From contig JBBJNV010000003.1 of the NCBI GenBank assembly GCA_037721215.1, positions 1 to 55,645 of the forward strand: a stretch of 55,645 nt of DNA. Direction: 5' to 3'. The notes under the pieces are model-generated. The model made no database searches. It saw only the letters and a list, made by a program, of their open reading frames with translations, and had not been told where the DNA came from. Made by a program: the position numbers and the translations under genes. The DNA is from Gemmatimonadaceae bacterium (GTDB lineage Bacteria > Gemmatimonadota > Gemmatimonadetes > Gemmatimonadales > Gemmatimonadaceae). Positions 8,317 to 55,645 of the stretch are shown piece by piece; position 1 is the first letter of the stretch, and each line of letters opens with the position of its first letter.

Positions 8317-9396
8317 ATGCGAATCGGCCTTCTCACCGGCGGTGGAGATGCACCCGGTCTCAACGCGGTCATTCGTGCCGCTGTGTTATCGGCCGACTAT
8401 CGGGGCTGGGACGTCGTAGGCATCAGACATGGCTTTACCGGGCTCCTGGGCGCATGCGATCTGATGCCGCTGACGCGTGCGAAGGTGAGCGGAATCGCTC
8501 ACCTGGGTGGGACGATTCTGAGGACGACAAACCGGGGGAATCCTCTCTGCTTTCCAGTGCGCAATGCAGATGGAAGCACGACCGAGACGGATTGCTCGCT
8601 GGAAGTAATGGAGAACGCGCGCCAGCATGGCATCGATGCAATCATCGCCATCGGCGGAGATGGAACACTCGCGATCGCGCTGGCATTGGTCGATCAGGGA
8701 TTGAAGGTCGTCGGGGTACCGAAGACGATCGACAATGATGTCAGCGGTACGATAACGACCTTCGGGTTCGATACGGCGGTGAATACGGCAATCGACGCGC
8801 TCGACAAGCTGCACACTACGGCAGAAAGCCACGATCGGGTGATAGTGATGGAAGTCATGGGGCGGGACGCTGGCTTCATTGCGCTTCATGCTGGTGTTGC
8901 TGCGACCGCGGACGTGATTCTGATTCCCGAGATTCCGTACGATATCGACAGAGTTTGCGAGAAGATCATGGCGCGGGACAGCGCCGGCCAGAATTTTTCC
9001 ATTGTCGTAGCGGCTGAGGGTGCGCTCCCGAAACACTCTGGCCATGAAACGGCGGAGGGCTCTGGCGCTTCAAGGACGATCCGGGCCGGAAGCGTTGCCG
9101 AGCGCCTTGTAGGGGAGATTTATGCGGGGACGGGGAAGGAATGCCGGTCGCTGGTGTTGGGCCATCTCCAGCGGGGCGGAATGCCAACCGGATACGACCG
9201 TCTCCTGGCTGCACGATTCGGCGCAGCGACGGTTACAGCTATAGAGAACGAGGCCTGGGGTCAGATGGTAGCACTCCAATCGCCGCACATCGTGACCGTT
9301 CCGATCCGCGAGGTAATCAGGGATCAGAAGCGGGTCGATCTCACTCACGACGTGGTGTTGGCCGCAAGGAGCACCGGGATAAGCCTTGGCGATTAG
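8317..9396 (+). CDS. pfkA: 6-phosphofructokinase (group III type)
   Basis: Converts fructose 6-phosphate to fructose 1,6-bisphosphate in glycolysis. The 359-residue protein begins MRIGLLTGGGDAPGLNAVI, the phosphoryl-donor site, and carries IGGDGTLA (GGDG at 113-116), PKTIDND (Lys at about 136), MGRDAGFIALHAG and GHLQRGG. The glycine after GGD points to ATP, while the lysine of PKTIDND is typical of pyrophosphate-using or mixed-substrate enzymes, where E. coli PfkA has glycine. It therefore belongs to the mixed group; the donor is probably ATP but is not certain from sequence alone. Start at ATG 8317; no strong ribosome binding site. Confidence 0.95.
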   Translation: MRIGLLTGGGDAPGLNAVIRAAVLSADYRGWDVVGIRHGFTGLLGACDLMPLTRAKVSGIAHLGGTILRTTNRGNPLCFPVRNADGSTTETDCSLEVMENARQHGIDAIIAIGGDGTLAIALALVDQGLKVVGVPKTIDNDVSGTITTFGFDTAVNTAIDALDKLHTTAESHDRVIVMEVMGRDAGFIALHAGVAATADVILIPEIPYDIDRVCEKIMARDSAGQNFSIVVAAEGALPKHSGHETAEGSGASRTIRAGSVAERLVGEIYAGTGKECRSLVLGHLQRGGMPTGYDRLLAARFGAATVTAIENEAWGQMVALQSPHIVTVPIREVIRDQKRVDLTHDVVLAARSTGISLGD

Positions 9397-9523
9397 GCTG
9401 GTGAATGATTTTGTCTGTTTTCTGACGTCGGCAACGGAGGAGACGGCAAGGGTTCGCTTCATGCAATGAATCCGGCAGCAGCGATTCGTTGCGACTGAGG
9501 GAACTACACGCAATCCACACTTG

Positions 9524-9530
9524 AAGGAGG
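9524..9530 (+). promoter_or_regulatory. Strong Shine-Dalgarno (AAGGAGG) fixing the PRC-barrel start
   Basis: A full AAGGAGG lies eight bases before the ATG at 9539. It decides between that ATG and a TTG at 9521, which would place the Shine-Dalgarno inside the coding region. Such a strong site is unusual in this window and suggests high expression. Confidence 0.8.
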
Positions 9531-9538
9531 ATCAACGG

Positions 9539-10180
9539 ATGGACAGAGATATTTCTTCTACCGGCGACCGGTTCGGTCGGCTGGTTCGGCTCGAGGAAAT
9601 CAAGGACTTCGATATCGCGAAAGGCAGCCGGGATATTCGCGGCTGGAACGTCAAGACTCCAGACGGACGAAATATCGGAAAAGTTGACGAGCTGATTGTG
9701 GATGCCGAGGCGAAGCGTGTCCGTTATATGGATGTGAAGATCGACCGTAAAGCACTGGGGGTCGACGACGATCGGCATATACTTGTGCCGATTGGTGCGG
9801 CGGAACTGAGCGAAACCGGTAATGACGTACTGCTTGACCGGTTGCCTGCTCGAGGACTGGCCAACGCCCCGGCCTATTCGCGGGCTCCGATCACGTCGGA
9901 GTATGAAGCATCAGTTCGCGACTATTACAACGCTGCAGGCACCGATAGCGGCGCCAGTTATCAGGGCGACGAGATGTACGATGACAAGCGGCTTCGACAC
10001 GATCACGCGCGCGAAGCCTCCGGCGATCTGGGCTCGATAACGCCGAAGTTCGGCGACAATGAGGTCACCCTGCCACTGACGGACGACCAGGAAGTCATCA
10101 TTCGGCGGCCGGGTTCCGACCAGGAGATGGTGATCAGGAAGAGCACGGCGCCAGACAGCGGAACTACAAAAGACCGCTAG
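9539..10180 (+). CDS. PRC-barrel domain protein
   Basis: A 213-residue soluble protein with one PRC-barrel (about residues 35-95: GWNVKTPDGRNIGKVDELIV ... HILVPIGAAEL) and a hydrophilic C-terminal tail that resembles a short piece of the stress-related DUF2382 region (about 170-205). Proteins with this plan are common in soil bacteria and often linked to general stress or surface adaptation, but the molecular function is not known. The start is fixed by a strong Shine-Dalgarno. It converges on ada with a 22-base gap. Confidence 0.85.
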   Translation: MDRDISSTGDRFGRLVRLEEIKDFDIAKGSRDIRGWNVKTPDGRNIGKVDELIVDAEAKRVRYMDVKIDRKALGVDDDRHILVPIGAAELSETGNDVLLDRLPARGLANAPAYSRAPITSEYEASVRDYYNAAGTDSGASYQGDEMYDDKRLRHDHAREASGDLGSITPKFGDNEVTLPLTDDQEVIIRRPGSDQEMVIRKSTAPDSGTTKDR

Positions 10181-10202
10181 CCACCCAGAACCTGCTGCCG
10201 GA

Positions 10203-11279
10203 TCAGGTTTCCAGGACTGGTTCGGCTTCCAGGTGTTTTTTCTCCAGATCGAGAAGAAATTTCTTTCTCCACAGCCCTCCGCCGTAGCCGCAGAGTTCGC
10301 CGTTCTGGCGGACGACGCGATGACATGGAATGATGATAGCGAGGCGGTTGTCGCCATTCGCCTTGCCGACGGCCCGTTGCGCTCCCGGCCTTCCCATCGC
10401 CCGGGCCTGCTGCTCGTAGCTGATGGTTTCCCCGTAAGGAATCAGCAGCAATTGCTTCCACGCGGCGACCTGAAACTCGGTCCCTGGCAGCACGAGTGGA
10501 ACGTCAAAGGTCTTGATACCGCCGGTAAAATAAATATCTAACTCTTTCTGCAATCGCTCGGTGTGACGATTAGCCCCCGGCACGATCGGCTGTCCGAACC
10601 ATTTCCTGAGACGCGTGATCTGCGTTTCGATCATCCTGCGGTCGGCGAATTCGAGCAGGCAGACCCCTTCCTCCGTTGCGCCGGCCAGCACGGGCCCGAG
10701 GGGCGTCAGGAAACGCGATACGACGATCGGGCGAATATCATTGCCTTGGTTGGGAGGGGCGTCGAACGCGCGCGTAAATGCGTCATGGAAACCGCTCGCC
10801 GACTCAAAGCCGTGTGTGTATCCGACACCCTCCCATTTTTCTCCCTGCCGTATCTGGCCGAGTGCAACTCCGAGGCGCCGTGCCCGCTGGTATGCCTGGA
10901 AAGTGAGGCCGTGGTGCTGGAGGAACCAGCGCCTGACGCGAGCCGGATCGAACTCCGCCGCACTCAGATCGGCGTCTCGCCACCGACGTGCCGGATCAGC
11001 ATCAACGCGGACGAGGAGATCCTTTAGCCAGGAAGGTGCGGCGCCAGCGGGATCCAGAGGACGGCACCGCATGCAGGGCCGGTAGCCCGCCACGACAGCC
11101 TCTCGAACCGTGGCATAGTATTCGACGTTCTCTCTCAGGGGCTTCTTCGCGGAACAGGTGGGCCGACAGAATATTCCTGTCGTTCTGATGGCCGCGAAGA
11201 ATACACCGTCGAAAGTGCTGTCGCGTTCGGCCAGCGCACGATACATCTTGTTAGCTGAAGGCAGTGAGGTGTTTGTCAT
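10203..11279 (-). CDS. ada: Ada: methylated-DNA repair protein and transcriptional activator
   Basis: Direct reversal of alkylation damage plus regulation of the adaptive response. The 358-residue protein has the three-part Ada plan: the N-terminal zinc/methylphosphotriester domain (FDGVFFAAIRTTGIFCRPTC, then RPCMRCRP, giving the four zinc cysteines), a central AraC-type helix-turn-helix (about 90-170, RVRRWFLQHHGLTFQAYQR), and a C-terminal O6-methylguanine methyltransferase with the acceptor cysteine in IIPCHRVV. Length matches E. coli Ada. I chose the ATG at 11279 (MTNTSLPSANKMYRAL); the frame is open further upstream but those residues are not family-like. Confidence 0.95.
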   Translation of the reverse strand: MTNTSLPSANKMYRALAERDSTFDGVFFAAIRTTGIFCRPTCSAKKPLRENVEYYATVREAVVAGYRPCMRCRPLDPAGAAPSWLKDLLVRVDADPARRWRDADLSAAEFDPARVRRWFLQHHGLTFQAYQRARRLGVALGQIRQGEKWEGVGYTHGFESASGFHDAFTRAFDAPPNQGNDIRPIVVSRFLTPLGPVLAGATEEGVCLLEFADRRMIETQITRLRKWFGQPIVPGANRHTERLQKELDIYFTGGIKTFDVPLVLPGTEFQVAAWKQLLLIPYGETISYEQQARAMGRPGAQRAVGKANGDNRLAIIIPCHRVVRQNGELCGYGGGLWRKKFLLDLEKKHLEAEPVLET

Positions 11280-11379
11280 GAACGGCAATCTAGAATCGTT
11301 GGCCGACAGCTTCCACCGAAAACTGGACAGGTAATTCCAACTGTATGGCGACGTTGCAGCAATGAACCCGGGAGCTACG

Positions 11380-11571
11380 ATGGACGACGAACTAAAGAAG
11401 AGATGGGAGAGTCTTGAAGCGGAGCTCAGAGCAGCCATGGCCAAGCTCGCCGAAGCGATTGAAAAGGCCAGAGACGAGATGCCTGCGGCCGCCAAGGCGA
11501 TAAATGACGAGTACCTGCGCGTGCAGGAAAAGCTCGACAGGGCTGTCGACAAAATGAAAATGCGAAAGTAG
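11380..11571 (+). CDS. Small helical (coiled-coil) protein
   Basis: A 63-residue, highly charged protein with no cysteine and no membrane segment. Heptad-like spacing of Leu/Ala (LEAELRAAMAKLAEAIEKAR) suggests a single amphipathic helix or antiparallel coiled coil. A GGGAG motif six bases before the ATG supports this start. Only two bases separate its stop from the next gene, so the two are probably co-transcribed. I do not recognise a family; function unknown. Confidence 0.65.
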   Translation: MDDELKKRWESLEAELRAAMAKLAEAIEKARDEMPAAAKAINDEYLRVQEKLDRAVDKMKMRK

Positions 11572-11573
11572 AA

Positions 11574-12443
11574 ATGCGATGGGCGTTGGCGGCAGCCGGG
11601 TGGCTGGTGAGCGGTACTTTCGCATTGCAGGCCAGTGCGCAGTGCCGGCCGCCGAAGGACAGCAATGAAGCGCGGCTTCTTGCGTTTTACTCGGTACCCA
11701 TTTCCTTCTCGCCGGCGGGAGCGCCGGAGCACCTGGCTCCGTGGACGATCCGCATCGGGGGTGAGGCCGGACCAGTCCCTGATCCCGACGCCGAGATTCT
11801 ACAGACTGGCGCCTGCTTCAGTCAGAAGAGCGAGAACACGGGGCTATCGCCGGTATTCGGGCGACCCCGGCTGACAGTCGGGTTGCCCGCGAGTTTTGCC
11901 CTCGAAGTCAGCTATCTGCCGCCGATCAGGATCAACGCTGCGGAGCCGAATCTCGTAAGCGGAGCGCTATCCTGGATTCACCGTATACGCATGCAAACGA
12001 CGAGCGACGGAACAGACGTCATGCTGAGGCTGCACGGAACTACCGGACGGGTGAGAGGCCCAATCACATGTCCAGCAGCCGGGTTGCAGACCATCAATCC
12101 AACTCAACCATGTTTTGGAACCACACAGTCAGTCGACACGTTTGAGCCAACGATGATGGGCGCAGAGGGTGTCGTGGGCACCGCTGCATACGATGGAAGG
12201 CTCGGCTTGTATGTTGGCGGGGGCGCCAATTTTCTGCGCCCCAGGTTCCGCGTGGGTTTCACCGATGGGCTTGGCAGCGTCGATAATACCGAGATTGAAA
12301 CTGACCTCACACGGGCTGTCGTGTTCGCCGGTTTGACCGCGCAGGTATCTCGCACGCTCGATCTGTCGGCCCAGGTTTATTCGGTGCCCAAGGACGCGAC
12401 GACACTTCGGGTTGGCGCCGGTTACAGGATCAGTCTCAGGTAG
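11574..12443 (+). CDS. Exported hypothetical protein, possible outer-membrane barrel
   Basis: A 289-residue protein of no recognised family. Residues 1-22 are a signal peptide with an Ala-Ser-Ala cleavage site (TFALQASAQC). The mature part has alternating hydrophobic/polar strands, glycine-rich turns and ends in a strand-like GAGYRISLR, which fits a beta-barrel or periplasmic beta protein. Four cysteines (near residues 23, 79, 164 and 174) could form disulfides. The second gene of a likely two-gene unit with the coiled-coil protein before it. Confidence 0.7.
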   Translation: MRWALAAAGWLVSGTFALQASAQCRPPKDSNEARLLAFYSVPISFSPAGAPEHLAPWTIRIGGEAGPVPDPDAEILQTGACFSQKSENTGLSPVFGRPRLTVGLPASFALEVSYLPPIRINAAEPNLVSGALSWIHRIRMQTTSDGTDVMLRLHGTTGRVRGPITCPAAGLQTINPTQPCFGTTQSVDTFEPTMMGAEGVVGTAAYDGRLGLYVGGGANFLRPRFRVGFTDGLGSVDNTEIETDLTRAVVFAGLTAQVSRTLDLSAQVYSVPKDATTLRVGAGYRISLR

Positions 12444-12505
12444 GTACCGCGTTACGGCACGATTTCTGTAAGTGCATCTCTCTGATCCTCAACTGAGAGA
12501 AGCCG

Positions 12506-12709
12506 ATGAAGCCGACCCACGTAAACAAGAATGACGCAATCGTCACCGACCAAAAGCTCCGTCATAACGACGATGGCATTTATGCGCAGGAGAAGCAGGA
12601 ATTCCAGGGCTCCGAGAAAAAGAAGCAGCGCGAGGCAGAATCGGTAGCCGAAGAAAGTTCCATCGAGGAAGCGCCGTCTGCGGACAACAGCAAGCGCGAC
12701 GAAAAATAA
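12506..12709 (+). CDS. Small charged, probably disordered protein
   Basis: A 67-residue protein made almost wholly of Lys, Glu, Asp, Gln, Asn and Ser (QEFQGSEKKKQREAESVAEE), with no hydrophobic core, so it is predicted to be disordered. A GAGAGAAG stretch lies just before the ATG at about the right distance for ribosome binding. No family recognised. A similar charged small gene lies at 29726-29938. It could be a stress or desiccation protein; that is speculation. Confidence 0.5.
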   Translation: MKPTHVNKNDAIVTDQKLRHNDDGIYAQEKQEFQGSEKKKQREAESVAEESSIEEAPSADNSKRDEK

Positions 12710-12818
12710 TCGGCAGCGAGGGAACATCGATTCCCAGATATGCTACAACTGGGTGGATCCATTACCGGATCGCACTGACGAATCGACTCAATCAACAGGA
12801 ATTAACGAGGTGCATACT

Positions 12819-13508
12819 ATGAAGTTCTTAATGAATGGCCGACGGACTCTCGTCGCGACTCTGGCGCTCGGCTCAATCGGTCTTTCCGCCTGCGCCAGTC
12901 TGAATAACAAGGAACGGGGCGCTGTCATTGGCGCCGGCACCGGTGCCGCTGTTGGCGGCGTGATCGGCAACAACACCGGAGGTTCCACAGCCAGGGGCGC
13001 AATCATTGGCGCGGTACTGGGAGGTGTGGCCGGTGCGGTCATCGGCAACCAGATGGATCAGCAGGCGAAGGAGATCGACCAGTCTGTCACCGGAGCCGAG
13101 GTAGAGCGCGTAGGTGAGGGAATCGAAGTGACGTTCAACTCCGGGCTGCTGTTCGACTTCGACTCCGATGTTATCCGACCGGCTGCGGCGGAGAACCTTC
13201 GCGAGCTGGCGAGAAACCTGACCAAGTACGGCAATTCGAGCCTGCTCATCGTGGGTCACACCGATAGCCAGGGTGATGATTCGTACAATCAGAGCCTGTC
13301 GTACCGCCGTGCGAATGCAGCGTCCGCGTACCTTCAGGCGCAGGGTGTGCCGCGCTCCAGGATCAATACCAACGGACGAGGCGAGCTTGAGCCGGAAGCT
13401 TCGAATGCCAGCGAGTCAGGGCGACAGAGAAACCGTCGTGTGGAAGTGGCGATATATGCAAGCGAGGCGTACCGCGAGCAGGTAAGACGGGATTCAGCCC
13501 GCAACTAG
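12819..13508 (+). CDS. OmpA-family lipoprotein with glycine-zipper domain
   Basis: A 229-residue outer-membrane-anchored, peptidoglycan-binding protein. The lipobox LSAC places the lipidated cysteine near residue 23. A glycine-zipper segment follows (about 30-75: GAVIGAGTGAAVGGVIG, then a second similar stretch), and then an OmpA domain (about 105-215) with FDFDSDVI, LLIVGHTDSQGDD, NQSLSYRRANAASAYL and RQRNRRVEV, the last containing the diaminopimelate-binding arginine. Same plan as E. coli YiaD. ATG 12819 is preceded by ACGAGG eight bases upstream. Transcription probably ends at the hairpin at 13534. Confidence 0.93.
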   Translation: MKFLMNGRRTLVATLALGSIGLSACASLNNKERGAVIGAGTGAAVGGVIGNNTGGSTARGAIIGAVLGGVAGAVIGNQMDQQAKEIDQSVTGAEVERVGEGIEVTFNSGLLFDFDSDVIRPAAAENLRELARNLTKYGNSSLLIVGHTDSQGDDSYNQSLSYRRANAASAYLQAQGVPRSRINTNGRGELEPEASNASESGRQRNRRVEVAIYASEAYREQVRRDSARN

Positions 13509-13533
13509 TCTGCTGTAGCTGTTACAATCCATC

Positions 13534-13569
13534 ACAGTTCCCCGTCAGGTCTGCCTGACGGGGAACTGT
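13534..13569 (+). terminator. Perfect 16-bp hairpin after the OmpA gene
   Basis: ACAGTTCCCCGTCAGG (13534-13549), loop TCTG, then its exact complement (13554-13569), 25 bases past the stop codon of the OmpA gene. Only a short TTTGTT follows, so it is either a rho-independent terminator with a weak U-tract or an RNA-stabilising 3' hairpin. Confidence 0.8.
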
Positions 13570-13713
13570 TTGTTATGGCGGGTGTGTCTGTGGATCATTC
13601 GTGGTGCAACGATCGTTGAGATGTATATCGACGATCGAATCCTGGTGGACCGAGGCGCAGGACTCGCAATCAGCGATATGTTTCGCGGCATGTCTCTGGC
13701 ATTCTGATTAATC

Positions 13714-16700
13714 GTGGCAATCTCGATACCCCCAAAACCCCCGTCAAACAGGCTCCTGCACCTGTTCCGCCGCAAGCGCCCTGGGTCCGACAGATCGCTG
13801 GTAGGTCCGATCCAGGGGGAGATGTTCGGTGCAGACCGTCTGGCGAAGCATTCGCGGAATATCGCCCGCAAGCACAGGCTACTTCCTCCACGCAAACAAC
13901 GCGGGCACGGTCCGCTACTCGAGAGACTGGATGACACACGGCGAGTACTGAGCCGGGTGCACGACCGCCTGAGTGATGCGGCAGAGCGTGGTGTCGACAT
14001 AAGCCCGGCGGGCGAATGGCTGCTCGACAACGCGTACATCGTGCAGGAGCATGTTCGGGAGATACGCACGAATCTTCCAGGCGGCTACTACCAGGAGCTT
14101 CCGAAGCTGGCCAACGGCACTCTGGCCGACTACCCGCGGGTGTATGATGTCGCAATCGAGCTGATTGCGCACACCGAGGGTCATTTGTCGCTCGAGAACA
14201 TCACTCTCTTCGTGCAAGAGTACCAGAAGGTGACTGCCCTGAAGATGGGCGAATTGTGGGCGATCCCGACGATGCTTCGGCTCGGACTCGTCGAGAACAT
14301 CCGCCGGATGTCCCTCCGCGTGTCCGCCCGGCTGGACGAAGTCGAGCTTGCGGACCGATGGGCGAAACGGCTGATGCTCGCCAATGACGAATCACCTGCC
14401 GCCCTTACCCGTGAACTGGATTCGTTTATCGATGAGCATCCGGCGTTCACGCCGATTTTCGTGACTCGCTTTCTGCATCAGATTCGCGGTTACCAGGTCA
14501 ATTTCACCCCTCTTATCTGGCTGGAGCAGTGGATCGCCGAGGACGGTCCGAGCGCCGAGGTGGCAGTTACGAGGTCGAACCGGATGACTGCCATGACGCA
14601 GGTGACGGTGGCCAACTGCATTACGAGCCTACGCACTATCGCGCGTCTTGACTGGAAGGATTTTGTAGAGTCGCAGAGCGTGACTGAAAAGATTCTCCGG
14701 AAGGACGTGACGGGTTGTTATCCCACAATGCTGTTCGGAACGCGCGATCACTACCGGCATGTGGTCGAACACATTGCAAAGCAGACGAAAAAAGAAGAGG
14801 AAGAAGTAGCACGCGCCGCTCTCGCGCTTTCGATTTCGTCAGAGAACAAAGGCGACGTTCGGCGTTCTCATATCGGCTACTATCTGATCGACGAGGGACG
14901 GTTCGATCTGGAGCGCGAAACCGGATATACGCCGCCTCTGAAAGAATCGATATACCGCTGGACTCAGCGTCACCCGACGTTTCTTTATTTCGGCGGCATT
15001 GCGACGGCAACGCTGATGCTGATATCGCTCGTGTTCTCGGTGATAGAACCGGAGACGATAGGGTTGAGGATTGCGGTGTTCCTTCTCGCGCTCGTACCCG
15101 CAAACGAGATCGGTATCGGGATTGTCAACCAGCTCGTCACGCTGCTGCTGCCGCCGCACATTCTGCCCAAAATGGAGTTCCGCGAGGACGGGATTCCCGA
15201 CGCCAACCGGACTGCGGTCGTGGTTCCCACGCTATTCGGAAGCGTCAAGGCGGTCACAGAGGCACTGGAGCATATCGAAGTTCAGTATCTCGCCAACCGC
15301 GACCCGAATCTGTTTTTCGCCATCCTCAGTGATTTAACGGACTCGCCAACAGAGACGCGGGAATCCGACGCTGAAATTCTGCAGTCGGCGACGAGCGGAA
15401 TTGCCGAACTCAATGAGAAATACAGTCGCGACGAGAGCGATGTGTTCTATCTGTTCCATCGCCGCCGTCTCTGGAACGAGCAACAGGGCGTGTGGATGGG
15501 GTGGGAACGGAAGCGCGGCAAGCTCGGACAGTTCAACCGTTATCTGCGAGGGCATGCGGAAGATGCGTTCGCAACAGTCACGGGAGATCCGACAATGCTG
15601 CGAAGCGTGAAGTTCGTCATCACGCTCGACTCGGATACGGTATTGCCCCGGGACGCTGCACAGATGCTGGTGGGAGCAATAGCTCATCCCCTGAACACCC
15701 CGGAGTATGATCCGCAGCTGGGTCGCATTGTGCGCGGCTATGGGATTTTCCAGCCCCGGGTCGGCGTGTCGCTCACGAGCGCGCATGCATCACACTTCGC
15801 GGCGATCCATTCGGGACATCCCGGCGTGGATCCTTATACAACCGCAGTGTCGGACGTGTACCAGGATCTGTTCTCCGAGGGAAGCTTTACCGGAAAAGGT
15901 ATTTATGACGTGGATGCGTTCGAACAGGCGACGCACGGACGGTTCCCCGAGAACACGCTGCTAAGTCACGATCTGATCGAAGGCGCGTACTCGAGAGCGG
16001 CGCTCGCTACCGACATCGAGGTATATGATGACTACCCGGCGCGGTACCTGACATACACGCGCCGCAAGCACCGGTGGATCAGAGGCGACTGGCAGCTGCT
16101 TGGCTGGCTGACGGGCACCGTACCGGGGCCGGAGGGACCCACGAAAAACCGCCTGTCGGCGATCTCGCGCTGGAAGATCTTCGATAATCTCCGGCGAAGT
16201 GTCGTTGAGCTCTCACTGCTGGTTTTGCTTTTTGCCGGCTGGTTCGTGCTGCCTGGCCCGGCAATACGGTGGACGATGCTGGTGCTCGGCGCGATTCTGT
16301 TTCCCTGGGTTTTCTCCCTGTTCCTGGCGCTGTTGCGGCCGCCCACGGATCAGTCGTGGGCGGCGTATTACACGGCTGTTGGCCGGGACGCCAGCGTCAG
16401 CGCGCAGCAGTTCGTCCTCGCCGCAACATTTCTGCCACATCAGGCGGTAGTCAGTGCAGACGCAATTGTCCGCACCCTTATTCGCCTTGGCATTACAAAG
16501 AAAAAGTTTCTTGAATGGCAGACCGCGTCGCAGGTCGAGCGGTCGATGGCAAGCGGATCGCGGATAGAAGTATGGCGGAGAATGTCTCCAGTCACGGCGC
16601 TTGCACTGATCATTGGCATAGCTGTCGTAACGGTATCCGGTACATCGTTCGATGCCGGCTCACGTGACAGCGTTATTCTGCTGGCAGCGACGGTGCCGCT

Positions 16701-50339: not shown

Positions 50340-51080
50340 CTAGCGCTCGCCTAACTGGTTTGAGATACTCGCAGTTCTATAGATAGCAGTTCCCATCGCA
50401 CCCGCAGCAATCACGGCAACCGTCCAACCCAGCAGCGTCCCGGGCGCCCACCCCATCCACCCAGCGACCGGGGCATCGGCAAGCGCGGCCAACGCCAGTA
50501 ACACCAGCCGCTCCGCCCGCTGCATCACCCCTCCGCGGCACAACACCCCCAACGCCTCACCCCGCGCCCGGGTATAACTCACGAGCAGCGACGCTCCGAG
50601 TGCGAGCGCGACGGCAGCCGTCGCCCACCTCTGGCCATCATAGAAAATCGCTAGCCCGGCAAAGGCGAAAGTCTCAGCGAACCTGTCGAGCGTCGAGTCC
50701 AGAAACGCCCCACGCTCATTCGCGATCCCGCGCGCCCGGGCTATCCGTCCGTCGAAAATGTCCGAGGCTCCCCCCAGAAGCACCATCCAGCCGCCGAGTG
50801 CCAGCTCACCGAACACAAAGGCAAAGCCCGCCGCCGCACCGAAGACGACACCCAGATAATTGAAGACATCCGGTGAAACCCTTGTCCTTACAAAGAATCG
50901 CTCGACGGGGCCAATCACCCACATCAGCCAGTCGCGCACCCAGAAACCCAGAATCATCGTCGTTGGACGGCGCGCCACGTCGACGTCCATCGAGCGGCCG
51001 CGCCCGACTACCGCGAAGACGGGCATCGTCAACAACAGTGCGGCCACCAGCAGCAGGGCAATCCGCTCGGTTGCCCTCAC
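50340..51080 (-). CDS. CDP-alcohol phosphatidyltransferase
   Basis: A 246-residue integral membrane enzyme that joins a CDP-activated lipid to an alcohol acceptor. The family signature is complete, DG-x2-AR-x8-G-x3-D-x3-D, seen as DGRIARARGIANERGAFLD plus STLD (Asp at about 110 to 132), with about six hydrophobic helices around it. The later motif RGGVMQRAERLVLL resembles phosphatidylinositol-phosphate synthase relatives, but the acceptor is undecided. I chose GTG 51080 because it overlaps the preceding stop as GTGA and begins at the first helix; the frame runs upstream to 51155. Coupled to a candidate CDP-DAG synthase, which would supply its substrate. Confidence 0.88.
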   Translation of the reverse strand: MRATERIALLLVAALLLTMPVFAVVGRGRSMDVDVARRPTTMILGFWVRDWLMWVIGPVERFFVRTRVSPDVFNYLGVVFGAAAGFAFVFGELALGGWMVLLGGASDIFDGRIARARGIANERGAFLDSTLDRFAETFAFAGLAIFYDGQRWATAAVALALGASLLVSYTRARGEALGVLCRGGVMQRAERLVLLALAALADAPVAGWMGWAPGTLLGWTVAVIAAGAMGTAIYRTASISNQLGER

Positions 51081-52126
51081 TTTCTCATTCGGCGTTGCTG
51101 CGGGCGGGTGCGTAGGAAAAGGATCGCTTTGGGCCACAGGAAAATGAACGGCCACCGACGCTCACGCTCGGTCAACTCGACGGCCACCCCGCTCCTCCGG
51201 GCAATCTTCTGAACGACGTAGTCGAGCCAGCCATCGTAGAGGGCGATGTGCTTGGCCCATCTTACCGTCCCCCGCGCCTTCGAAATGCGGAAATACCGCT
51301 GCCGCCGCCGCCGCTCGGCGAGCGGCGGGAAAATCACCTGCCGATAGCCGTCCTTGCCGCGTTCGAGGATCCCGTGACGCGTCAAGCCATCGAGCAGCGC
51401 CGAATACACAGGCAGAAGCGCAACTCGCTGGGCATCGAGCAGCTGCGTCACCCGATCATCACCCTCCGGCCTTACCTCCGCGGAAAACGATGTCTCGAGC
51501 AGTACCCGGCAGTACGTCTCTGCATCGAATGACTGAGGCAGAAACGGCTGGCCCCACTGATAAGTCCGGATACGCATCTCGACCAGCGCCGAACTCACGT
51601 CCTCCCGGCTTTGATCGTCCCTCGCCCAGAGGAGCTGGACATTCTGGAACAGGCGTCCCTGAGTGAAATGGTCGGCGGTCTCCATCCGCGCGGCCAGCCG
51701 CAAGCCGCGCAAAGTCAGTACCGCGCACTTGCTGCGCCCATCCCGCCCATCGGGTGCTCTGATGGCGTGGATGTTGGGCGGCAGTACATGCGCGAGCACT
51801 TCGGCAGTTCGCGGGCCGACCGAAGTGTCAATCGCACTTGTCAGGGACAGATACGCATCGTGATAGCGCTCGACGATCACGAAGAAATCATGCGCGCTGT
51901 CGGCGCGCGCGTCCGAGCGTTGCGCGTGCGAGCCATAATGGATGACAGCCAGTGCGCCAGGCCCGAAGGCATCGGCAATGGCGTTCCCCAGTGTGCGGGC
52001 GGTAGGCGTGGGTTCCGCATCGAGTCCACCGGCAAGGGCGGTGCGGAGCTCCCTGTCGGCGAGCACCTGATCCAGAAAGTCCACGAATAACGGCTCGGTT
52101 GTAGTCGGGTGGCCGCGCCAGCACAA
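51077..52126 (-). CDS. Tam41-like nucleotidyltransferase, candidate CDP-DAG synthase
   Basis: A 349-residue protein with a nucleotidyltransferase core: IHYGSHAQ (64-66 YGS) and HDFFVIV (Asp80). The acidic motif is DF-x-x-V rather than the classical DxD, as in mitochondrial Tam41, the soluble-type CDP-diacylglycerol synthase. The C-terminal half also follows Tam41 in outline: a GRLFQNVQLLW segment, an ALVEMRIRTYQW helix, then SFSAEVRPE and a winged-helix-like region, and finally a basic, hydrophobic tail (RRWPFIFLWPKAILF) that could sit on membrane. The next gene uses CDP-activated lipid, supporting the call. Start TTG 52126 is uncertain; GTG 52084 is an alternative. Another nucleotidyltransferase role remains possible. 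Confidence 0.6.
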   Translation of the reverse strand: MCWRGHPTTTEPLFVDFLDQVLADRELRTALAGGLDAEPTPTARTLGNAIADAFGPGALAVIHYGSHAQRSDARADSAHDFFVIVERYHDAYLSLTSAIDTSVGPRTAEVLAHVLPPNIHAIRAPDGRDGRSKCAVLTLRGLRLAARMETADHFTQGRLFQNVQLLWARDDQSREDVSSALVEMRIRTYQWGQPFLPQSFDAETYCRVLLETSFSAEVRPEGDDRVTQLLDAQRVALLPVYSALLDGLTRHGILERGKDGYRQVIFPPLAERRRRQRYFRISKARGTVRWAKHIALYDGWLDYVVQKIARRSGVAVELTERERRWPFIFLWPKAILFLRTRPQQRRMRK

Positions 52127-52298: not shown

Positions 52299-54143
52299 AT
52301 GCCGAAGCCACAGTTCCGTAACAGATCAAATCGCACGGCGCTGTCGTCCAGCGAGGGCAGAATCTATCCGCCCCCCGTCGTCGAAAACCCCGGGGACGCG
52401 ATCAGCGCCACCGAATGGGGCTTCGTCGACACATCCTTTGCCGTCGACCAGTCCGGGGCGATAACGGTCAAAGGAGACCGATACCCAGGCCTGAGCGGAC
52501 AGACTCTCCCTGATCTGCTGCCCTGGTTCCGCTCGGTCGTAGGCATCGATTTCTCAGTGCTCGACCCGGCCGCCAGCAGTTATCCGCCCTATGTTCCCGA
52601 GTCCAGACCGGCCCCGGCGTTTCTGGAGCGGATCGAGTCCTTCCTCCCTGCAGCTCAGGTCACCACCGAGCCGGTGATCCGCCTGCGCCACGGCCACGGC
52701 CACACCGTCTCGGAGATCAACGCGGTCCGGACCACCGGCTTCGACAGGGTGCCCGACTACGTAGTCTACCCGGCCGATGAGGCTCAGGTAGCCGCGCTGG
52801 TGGAAGCGGCATCGGAAACGGACGTGGTACTCATTCCGTACGGTGGAGGAACGAACGTCACGGAGGCGTTGCGCTGCCTCCCTCATGAGGAGCGACCCAT
52901 CATTTCAGTGGACATGGGCCGCATGAACCGTATTGAATGGATCGATCCCGTTAATCGGATGGCGAAGATTCAGGCGGGTGCACCAGGCCGGCTGATTCAG
53001 GCCCAGCTGGCCGGGTACGGCTATTCGATGGGCCACGAGCCCGACAGCGTAGAGTTTTCCACGCTCGGCGGATGGATCGCGACGAACGCCAGCGGGATGA
53101 AGAAAAACCAGTACGGAAACATCGAAGACATCGTTCTCGATGTGACTGTCATCTCGGCGGCCGGAAAGCTCGAGCGCTCGCACGTCGTCCCCCGCGAGAG
53201 CATCGGCATCGATCCCAAGTTGTGGATCATAGGCAGCGAAGGAACACTGGGAATCGTGACCTCCGCGGTGGTAAAGCTGTTCCCGCTGCCCGAGGAACAG
53301 CGCTACGGATCGGTGATCTTCAAGACATTCGAAGATGGCATTGCATTCATGTATGACGTGGCCCAGGAAGACCGGCGTCCCGCGAGTGTTCGCTTGGTAG
53401 ACAACCTCCAGTTCCAGTTCGGGCAGGTACTCAAAGCGCCCTCGCGTGGCGCGAAGCGCCTCAAGAGCAAAGCGGAAAAATGGATGGTTACCGGCCCGCT
53501 CGGGTTCGATCCGCAGAAAATGGTTGCGGTCACGCTGGTCTTCGAAGGCACCCGCGAACAGGTGGAACGCCAGGAAAAGCGGATCTACCAGCTCGCGAAA
53601 CGCCAACAGGGCTTCAAGGGCGGAGCGGAAAACGGCAGGCGTGGATATCTCCTCACTTTCGGTATCGCCTACATCCGCGATTTCGTTCTGCGTCATCACA
53701 TTCTGGGCGAATCGTTCGAGACCTCCGTTCCGTGGAGCCAGGCGCAGGAGCTGATCGACCGGGTAAAACGGCGGATATATGCCGCGCACGAAAAGCGCAG
53801 GCTTCCCGGCCATCCGTTCGTGTCATGCCGGGTTACGCAGGTCTATGACACGGGATGCTGTATCTATTTCTACATGGCCTTTTATTCGAAAGGCGTGTCG
53901 GATGCGGTTGGCGCGTATCATGAAATCGAGGCTGAGGCGCGCGAGGAGATCATCGACGCTGGTGGGTCCATCTCGCACCACCACGGCGTCGGCAAGCTTC
54001 GGCTTCCTTTCGTGCGCGACATCATGTCGCCGGCCATGATGGAATGGCGGGATCAGATGAAGGCGACTCTCGATCCTCGTGGTATTTTCGCCGCCCAGTC
54101 GCCGCTCGAAGTGCATGAACCAGTATCCCTGGTGGCCTCATGA
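52299..54143 (+). CDS. Alkyldihydroxyacetonephosphate synthase (AGPS), eukaryote-like
   Basis: FAD enzyme that exchanges the acyl chain of acyl-DHAP for a fatty alcohol, creating the ether bond of ether lipids. 614 residues. Very close in motif content to animal peroxisomal AGPS: RYPGLSG; PDYVVYPADEAQV; FAD-binding PYGGGTNV; MGHEPDSVEFSTLGGW (GHEPDS 245-250); ASGMKKNQYGNIED; GSEGTLGIVT; NGRRGYLLTFGIAYIRD (Arg448); LGESFETSVPW; CRVTQVYDTGCCIYFY; and the active-site HHHGVGKLR (His560-562). No peroxisomal targeting leader. ATG 52299 has a weak GAG upstream. Its stop overlaps the next start (ATGA), so it is coupled to the fatty acyl-CoA reductase gene. Confidence 0.93.
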   Translation: MPKPQFRNRSNRTALSSSEGRIYPPPVVENPGDAISATEWGFVDTSFAVDQSGAITVKGDRYPGLSGQTLPDLLPWFRSVVGIDFSVLDPAASSYPPYVPESRPAPAFLERIESFLPAAQVTTEPVIRLRHGHGHTVSEINAVRTTGFDRVPDYVVYPADEAQVAALVEAASETDVVLIPYGGGTNVTEALRCLPHEERPIISVDMGRMNRIEWIDPVNRMAKIQAGAPGRLIQAQLAGYGYSMGHEPDSVEFSTLGGWIATNASGMKKNQYGNIEDIVLDVTVISAAGKLERSHVVPRESIGIDPKLWIIGSEGTLGIVTSAVVKLFPLPEEQRYGSVIFKTFEDGIAFMYDVAQEDRRPASVRLVDNLQFQFGQVLKAPSRGAKRLKSKAEKWMVTGPLGFDPQKMVAVTLVFEGTREQVERQEKRIYQLAKRQQGFKGGAENGRRGYLLTFGIAYIRDFVLRHHILGESFETSVPWSQAQELIDRVKRRIYAAHEKRRLPGHPFVSCRVTQVYDTGCCIYFYMAFYSKGVSDAVGAYHEIEAEAREEIIDAGGSISHHHGVGKLRLPFVRDIMSPAMMEWRDQMKATLDPRGIFAAQSPLEVHEPVSLVAS

Positions 54144-55645
54144 CCGCGGCCCCGGCCGGAGCCCGCGTGATGCTGACCGGAGTTACCGGATTCGTCGGCA
54201 AGGTGGTGCTCGAGGAACTCCTGCGGCGGCGTGAGGAGCTGGGCATCGAGCGTGTCTATCTGCTGATCCGTTCTCGCAGAAGAAAATCTCCGGCCGACCG
54301 ATTCGACCAGAATGTGGCTACTTCGCCCTGCTTCGCGCTGCTGGAACCCGGGTGGCGCGATTTCTGTCAGCCAGTTGCCGGGAACGTGACGGATAAAGGA
54401 CTGGGGTTCTCTGCGCCAGACGCTCAACTGCTTCGTGATAACCTGACGCACATAATTCACTGTGCGGCGTCGGTAAAATTCGATCTCCCGGTTGCGGAAG
54501 CGACATTAATCAACATCACGGGCGCGCTGGGAGTGCTGGAGTTCGCGCAGAGCTGTCCCGGACTCAAACGACTGGTCGATGTATCCACTGCCTACGTCAC
54601 ACCACACCCGGGCGACGGCGTTCCGATCGAGGAAAAACTCGTCGAGCTGCCGTTCGATGCTGAGGAGGTCTATGACACTATCCGGGCCGGCAACGCGGAC
54701 GAAAAGGCGCTCATGGCGCAGACGAGGCACGCGAACACCTACACCCTGACGAAGTGCATTGCCGAGGTGCTCCTCGTAAAGCGCCGGGGCGACACGCCGC
54801 TCACGCTCCTCAGGCCGAGTATCGTGTCGGCGTGCAGGCGGTATCCGTTTCCGGGGTGGATCGACAGTCGGGCTGCCTATGCGGCATTCATTTCGCTGCT
54901 TGGCGCAGGCCATTTGCGGGTCGTGCGCATCGATCCAAACGCGGTACCGGATGTGGTGCCTTGTGACGACGTGGCTGCCCGTATCATCTCCTGCGCTTTC
55001 GAGCCGTCACTTCAGACGCCGATCGTCGTGCGACATGCGGTGGCCGGACTTGCGAACAGCGGGTTGCTGTCCAAGCTGGCGTACGCCCACGAGCTGCATT
55101 TCAAGAATCATCCGCACGCGAAGGAAGCCAAGTGGGCCTATGTCGGAGATTCCATGGCATCGTTTCGTTTTCATGAACTGATGCATCACCATGTTCCGAT
55201 GGGAGCGGCGAAGGTAGCCACACGGTTGACCCGGCGCCGAAAGGCGATCAGTCAGGTGGACAAGCTGGCCGACGTACTAGGCTATCTGGATGGCGCTTTT
55301 TATTACTTCGCGCACAACACTTTCGATTTTCGAACCGCGTTTCCGCCGCTCGAAGGGTTCGATCTCGATGAGTACCTCGAGACAATATCGCACGGCGTCT
55401 CGGAGCATCTGCTGAAGCGCAATCCCCGGAATGCGCCGCTTCGCATGCATGGTATGGACATGGGATGGGCAATGCGCCAGCCCGAAGGCAACTCGACGGT
55501 GCGGGCATTTGCGTACTTCATGCGCAAGACACTCCGTGCGGCCGGTGCGCAGATCACGTTCAACGAAGCCGAGATCAGGGCGGCGTTGCGCGATGTTAAG
55601 GATGGCGATCTGGTTGTGCTGGCGCCCAGCCACCGGAGCTACATG
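54140..55645 (+). CDS. Fatty acyl-CoA reductase fused to DHAP/G3P acyltransferase (3' end outside window)
   Basis: 502 residues visible, no stop before the window edge. Residues 1-430 follow the eukaryotic-type alcohol-forming fatty acyl-CoA reductase: NAD(P) motif LTGVTGFVGKVVLEELL, HIIHCAASVKFD, VDVSTAYVTP, the catalytic YTLTK (Tyr201, Lys205), RPSIVS, then the C-terminal domain ending DLDEYLETISHGVSEHLL. After a linker, residues 445-502 match the N-terminal side of GNPAT/PlsB acyltransferases and reach block I, VVLAPSHRSYM, containing the catalytic His. The protein would make both the fatty alcohol and the acyl-DHAP used by AGPS next door. Start ATG 54140 overlaps the AGPS stop. Confidence 0.85.
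   Translation, partial: MTAAPAGARVMLTGVTGFVGKVVLEELLRRREELGIERVYLLIRSRRRKSPADRFDQNVATSPCFALLEPGWRDFCQPVAGNVTDKGLGFSAPDAQLLRDNLTHIIHCAASVKFDLPVAEATLINITGALGVLEFAQSCPGLKRLVDVSTAYVTPHPGDGVPIEEKLVELPFDAEEVYDTIRAGNADEKALMAQTRHANTYTLTKCIAEVLLVKRRGDTPLTLLRPSIVSACRRYPFPGWIDSRAAYAAFISLLGAGHLRVVRIDPNAVPDVVPCDDVAARIISCAFEPSLQTPIVVRHAVAGLANSGLLSKLAYAHELHFKNHPHAKEAKWAYVGDSMASFRFHELMHHHVPMGAAKVATRLTRRRKAISQVDKLADVLGYLDGAFYYFAHNTFDFRTAFPPLEGFDLDEYLETISHGVSEHLLKRNPRNAPLRMHGMDMGWAMRQPEGNSTVRAFAYFMRKTLRAAGAQITFNEAEIRAALRDVKDGDLVVLAPSHRSYM

Follow-up and report, generated by a model that had tools for sequence, protein, structure and literature searches.

A three-gene operon in a Gemmatimonadaceae genome, of a type known from Myxococcus xanthus and predicted to build alkyl-ether lipid precursors by the DHAP route

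In M. xanthus, consecutive genes code for alkylglycerone-phosphate synthase (AGPS; MXAN_1676), a fatty acyl-CoA reductase (FAR) joined to a GNPAT-like acyltransferase (MXAN_1675) and a protein of the NAD epimerase family (MXAN_1674) (PMC9131029). Disruption of the AGPS gene causes a minor loss of ether lipids, as ElbD dominates, and the use of eukaryotic DHAP chemistry for bacterial ether lipids is an open question in myxobacteria (PMC9131029). ElbD has ACS and ACP domains and is encoded in an operon separate from AGPS (PMC9131029). In Dictyostelium, knockout of FARAT, a peroxisomal protein of 1279 aa in which FAR and DHAP-acyltransferase are fused N- to C-terminally and act with AGPS, keeps 13% of monoalkyl-diacylglycerol, a neutral ether lipid, which shows a FAR-acyltransferase fusion to be functional in making ether lipids (PMC7375469). 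Animals carry out the same three activities with separate FAR1, GNPAT and AGPS proteins in the peroxisome, and clostridia make ether lipids through the PlsA/R plasmalogen reductase route.

We analysed a stretch of 55,645 bases (the window; C3:1-55645) at the start of a 182,727-base Gemmatimonadaceae contig. The window ends within the second gene of the operon described here, and this truncated gene was read on in the whole contig. The features are as follows.

52299..54143, + strand: AGPS, alkylglycerone-phosphate (alkyl-DHAP) synthase, FAD-dependent, 614 aa (Pfam, PDB match, active-site residues)
54140..54143, + strand: stop of AGPS overlapping the start of FAR-GNPAT in ATGA, translational coupling (sequence)
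54140..55645, on to contig base 56782, + strand: FAR-GNPAT fusion, 880 aa, first 502 aa inside the window (Pfam, AlphaFold model, structure matches)
56787-57818 of the contig, + strand: ketoreductase-like SDR, directly 3' of the fusion (ORF in the whole contig)
51077..52126, - strand: divergent neighbour, 349 aa, no Pfam match; upstream boundary of the operon, outside it

The first-pass annotation had set this locus apart from myxobacteria, having compared it with elbD alone, the second route of M. xanthus. This distinction does not hold, since an operon of identical make-up and gene order exists in M. xanthus, with AGPS, FAR-GNPAT and SDR consecutive on one strand; our search also recovered it (L077). 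MXAN_1676, MXAN_1675 and MXAN_1674 are 52, 40 and 41% identical to their counterparts, and the fusion can be aligned end to end. M. xanthus differs in belonging to another phylum and in having a CarF with nine histidines. The fusion shares with ElbD a FAR domain and, as predicted, the ether-lipid product but has no ACS or ACP domain. No FAR-containing ElbD was found in this genome, where the single match was the FAR-GNPAT fusion, so that the operon may be its sole ether-lipid route. The fused layout resembles that of Dictyostelium FARAT, although Dictyostelium AGPS belongs to another subfamily; compared with animals, the three activities reside in two proteins and no peroxisome is involved. 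The DUF2229 domain, which we take as a marker of the anaerobic PlsA route, was not found in this genome.

The AGPS assignment rests on several concordant observations. The Pfam domains of the protein are FAD_binding_4 and FAD-oxidase_C, and a phmmer search of the PDB matched it to guinea-pig AGPS at E 6e-148 and to Dictyostelium AGPS at 8e-77. Identity to the guinea-pig enzyme is 44% over 565 columns, and all eight residues checked (equivalents of H300, D303, R419, R515, Y578 and H615-H617) are kept. Among the aligned PDB entries are two mutants of the animal enzyme, 4bc7 (R419H) and 4bca (Y578F), marking R419 and Y578 as residues probed by mutation. The animal landmarks GHEPDS, RGYLLT and HHHGVGKLR, which the first-pass annotation had pointed out, are all present in 52299-54143. 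The best reading of its putative reaction is the conversion of acyl-DHAP and fatty alcohol to alkyl-DHAP.

The fusion ORF starts at 54140, within ...CTCATGACC..., and its 4-base ATGA overlap with AGPS, also noted at first pass, is confirmed at 54140-54143; the same 4-base overlap occurs in many relatives. The earlier claim that the gene carries a FAR and the start of a GNPAT-type acyltransferase was borne out by following the frame past 55645. Rather than stopping shortly afterwards, the ORF stays open to 56782 and encodes a complete acyltransferase, including blocks II-IV. Pfam places NAD_binding_4 (FAR) at residues 12-280 (E 2e-55) and Acyltransferase at residues 487-612 (E 5e-18), the FAR domain occupying codons 1-430 and the acyltransferase beginning at about codon 455. 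In the N-terminal half, the motifs TGVTGFVGK (TGxTGFxGK) and Y201-TLT-K205 (YTLTK) are kept; together with the predicted FAR fold, they give this half the Rossmann TGxxGFxGK and YxxxK signature of an alcohol-forming FAR. The FAR half could, however, halt at the aldehyde. In the PF01553 domain, blocks I-IV (HxxxxD, R, FxEGxRSR, P) are all present, and H498xxxxD503, R550, the E578G-R581SR block and P609 lie among the invariant or near-invariant columns across 26 relatives.

A confident AlphaFold model of the fusion (mean pLDDT 87.5, pTM 0.82) has two domains. Residues 6-426 match 7eoz, the fatty acyl reductase DPW of rice (Z 37, 401 aligned, 3.4 A). Structure searches with the whole fusion were dominated by the Rossmann domain, and human GPAT1 (8e4y) appeared in the Foldseek list only, as the third match. 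The nearest NCBIfam models to the acyltransferase are those of PlsB, far below cut-off. On sequence grounds, the acyltransferase half is of the GNPAT/GPAT type, with DHAP as the predicted and glycerol-3-phosphate as a possible acceptor.

The SDR probably begins at a GTG at 56787, four bases past the fusion stop codon (56780-56782); an alternative in-frame ATG lies farther upstream, inside the fusion gene. Ketone and aldehyde reductases are among its nearest relatives of solved structure, which fits a reduction of alkyl-DHAP, and the SDR is probably the alkyl-DHAP reductase of the operon. PexRAP of the animal pathway is a classical SDR, unlike the operon SDR.

A fourth gene (254 aa; contig 57815-58579, or 5816-6580 in L005) begins in an ATGA overlap with the SDR stop and encodes a TGDILLF motif and a weak likeness to cysteine peptidases (3kw0, E 0.03); having no relative in other operons, it was dropped as a pathway member. 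The 349-aa divergent neighbour has one relative (44%) among 18 congeners and no relative at the further loci with the operon. A CDP-alcohol phosphatidyltransferase gene (50340-51155) lies on the opposite strand, two genes upstream of AGPS; its product resembles phosphatidylinositol-phosphate synthases, below the NCBIfam cut-offs. An all-against-all comparison of flanking frames, looking for genes besides CarF that recur near the operon, gave two weak three-member groups only.

Relatives were collected by scanning contigs with an alignment of fusion proteins, followed by tblastn of the flanks; a single fusion sequence as query had matched nothing. At about 30 loci AGPS has FAR or FAR-GNPAT as its neighbour, and the labels of these loci cover seven or more phyla: Gemmatimonadota, Myxococcota/Deltaproteobacteria, Sericytochromatia, Actinomycetota (Acidimicrobiia), Nitrospirota, Bacteroidota, Pseudomonadota and Planctomycetota. 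Since the labels mostly come from metagenome bins, no single one is safe; the AGPS tree places a 'Comamonas' record with Myxococcaceae, and this record probably carries a wrong label. Where the sequence reaches far enough, the SDR follows at most loci. The architecture varies, with FAR, acyltransferase and SDR in one 1170-aa chain downstream of AGPS in a Nitrospira bin (L085, 5971-9483) and FAR as a protein of its own, about 450 aa long, at two other loci (L092 and L094). The closest relative of the operon is found in a Longimicrobiaceae bin, with 79, 75 and 68% identity for the three proteins. In Gemmatimonadota the operon is rare: operon-type AGPS was detected in 4 of 298 genomes, and the FAR-GNPAT fusion is absent from all 18 congeners.

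The gene content and order, the overlaps, the full reading frames, the motifs, the predicted folds and the conservation are direct observations. Because the coupled genes encode AGPS, FAR and an acyltransferase of GNPAT/GPAT type, all with intact catalytic motifs, DHAP-route alkyl-ether synthesis is the best reading; we put the probability that the three-gene operon makes an sn-1 alkyl-ether precursor by this route at roughly 85%. DHAP would be acylated by the acyltransferase half of the fusion, while the FAR half would reduce acyl-CoA to fatty alcohol. AGPS would then exchange the acyl chain for the fatty alcohol, yielding 1-O-alkyl-DHAP, whose ketone the SDR probably reduces to 1-O-alkyl-glycerol-3-phosphate, which could enter ordinary phospholipid synthesis, PlsY and PS decarboxylase both being encoded in the genome. 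Finally, an unlinked CarF-family desaturase may turn plasmanyl-PE into plasmalogen. In this scheme we infer which substrates are used, the reduction by the SDR, the desaturation and lipid production itself.

The last step extends the DHAP-route reading rather than competing with it: with oxygen, the operon and the organism's own CarF-family protein would yield a true vinyl-ether plasmalogen. The CarF-family protein is encoded on another contig (C22), unlinked to the operon, and matches PF10520 at E 6e-55. It keeps all eight histidines and the equivalents of D100 and F118, and in a tree it falls on the CarF side (100/100), apart from the divergent PF10520 proteins of g35. Within the genus sample, CarF and the operon are both restricted to this genome, and across the phylum AGPS and PF10520 co-occur above expectation (2 of 4 against 13 of 298, p about 0.01), the genomes not being independent. 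However, Arg stands in place of the ninth histidine, the one specific to PEDS1 (H113 in M. xanthus, H131 in the mouse). According to the study from which we took the residue roles, Ala at this position inactivates CarF and leaves 7% of activity in mouse PEDS1 (PMC8960569). Moreover, Arg is usual at this position in plant homologues, and two family members (G238 and G264) have the Arg type without an AGPS match. The NCBIfam CarF model scores the protein at 192 bits (E 1e-56), below its cut-off of 500. A sequence search found no solved structure for CarF. On balance, plasmalogen formation by this pair of loci is possible but somewhat doubtful. Given the Arg at the ninth histidine, alkyl ethers are likely in this organism and plasmalogens uncertain.

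A PF10520 protein occurs in 7 of the 26 genomes with a fusion-type protein, so that, incomplete bins allowed for, most carriers would make alkyl ethers only. An exception may be GEM1, another Gemmatimonadaceae genome (G155, locus L057), in which 9168-15021 holds a four-gene cluster of CarF-type desaturase, AGPS, FAR-GNPAT and SDR. This desaturase has all nine histidines and its gene shares an ATGA overlap with the AGPS start; the cluster appears to be a full operon for aerobic plasmalogen synthesis. A 2022 review confined true CarF to myxobacteria and Leptospira. We give a little under even odds to the composite proposal that Gemmatimonadota have a plasmalogen pathway that is complete in itself and depends on oxygen (one four-gene operon in the case of GEM1), that the SDR is its dedicated alkyl-DHAP reductase, and that the DHAP-route module is widespread in bacteria and not a myxobacterial curiosity.

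A different function for the operon is improbable: the fusion would supply fatty alcohol for wax esters and acylate glycerol-3-phosphate for phospholipids, with AGPS acting as an oxidase like D-2-hydroxyacid dehydrogenase. The kinship of the acyltransferase to PlsB/GPAT1 and the place of AGPS within the VAO/FAD-oxidase_C family are consistent with this. Yet all AGPS-specific active-site residues are kept, and dehydrogenases in the PDB matched at E 1e-25 or weaker, far behind the AGPS match. PlsY is present in the genome, so that the fusion is not required as a housekeeping acyltransferase; WS/DGAT was not found in the genome, though its control also matched nowhere. Tight linkage to AGPS in so many loci likewise argues against this alternative. 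Slightly less probable still is a binning artefact that placed another organism's operon on this contig: the 18 congeners lack the operon and its closest relative (68-79%) sits in another family, but the operon GC of 0.60 equals that of the sampled rest of the contig and of the CarF contig, its third-position GC is near that of the contig's ORFs, and a flanking SGNH gene has relatives of 61-78% in congeners. With composition matching and a flanking gene of congeneric kin, transfer between Gemmatimonadota lineages appears more likely than contamination.

Since the operon, with its likely role, has been published in M. xanthus and the fusion in Dictyostelium, this genome adds a carrier to a known pathway and does not reveal a new one. 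AGPS homologues were found across many phyla in a 2025 Black Sea survey (PMC11868695). Our literature search found no description of the operon or of CarF-type proteins in Gemmatimonadota, of the CarF-linked form or of the triple fusion, and nothing relevant on ether lipids or plasmalogens in this phylum. The compact, recurrent module has a candidate dedicated reductase, joined in GEM1 by a linked desaturase, and constitutes a small gene set for heterologous testing.

The AGPS tree also bears on the source of the animal and amoebal enzymes. Guinea-pig AGPS groups with the operon-type bacterial AGPS, and Dictyostelium AGPS with a second, AGPS-like Gemmatimonadota clade; a constraint uniting both eukaryotic enzymes was rejected (p-AU 0.0004). 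As the tree holds just two eukaryotes and has long branches, it gives a lead on, but no proof of, separate origins of animal and amoebal AGPS. The second, Dictyostelium-like subfamily comprises L060, L043 and L044 (Gemmatimonadota genomes G147, G145 and G290), with identities of about 30% to the AGPS of the window, and in G147 its gene adjoins that of a separate 550-aa FAR-like protein.
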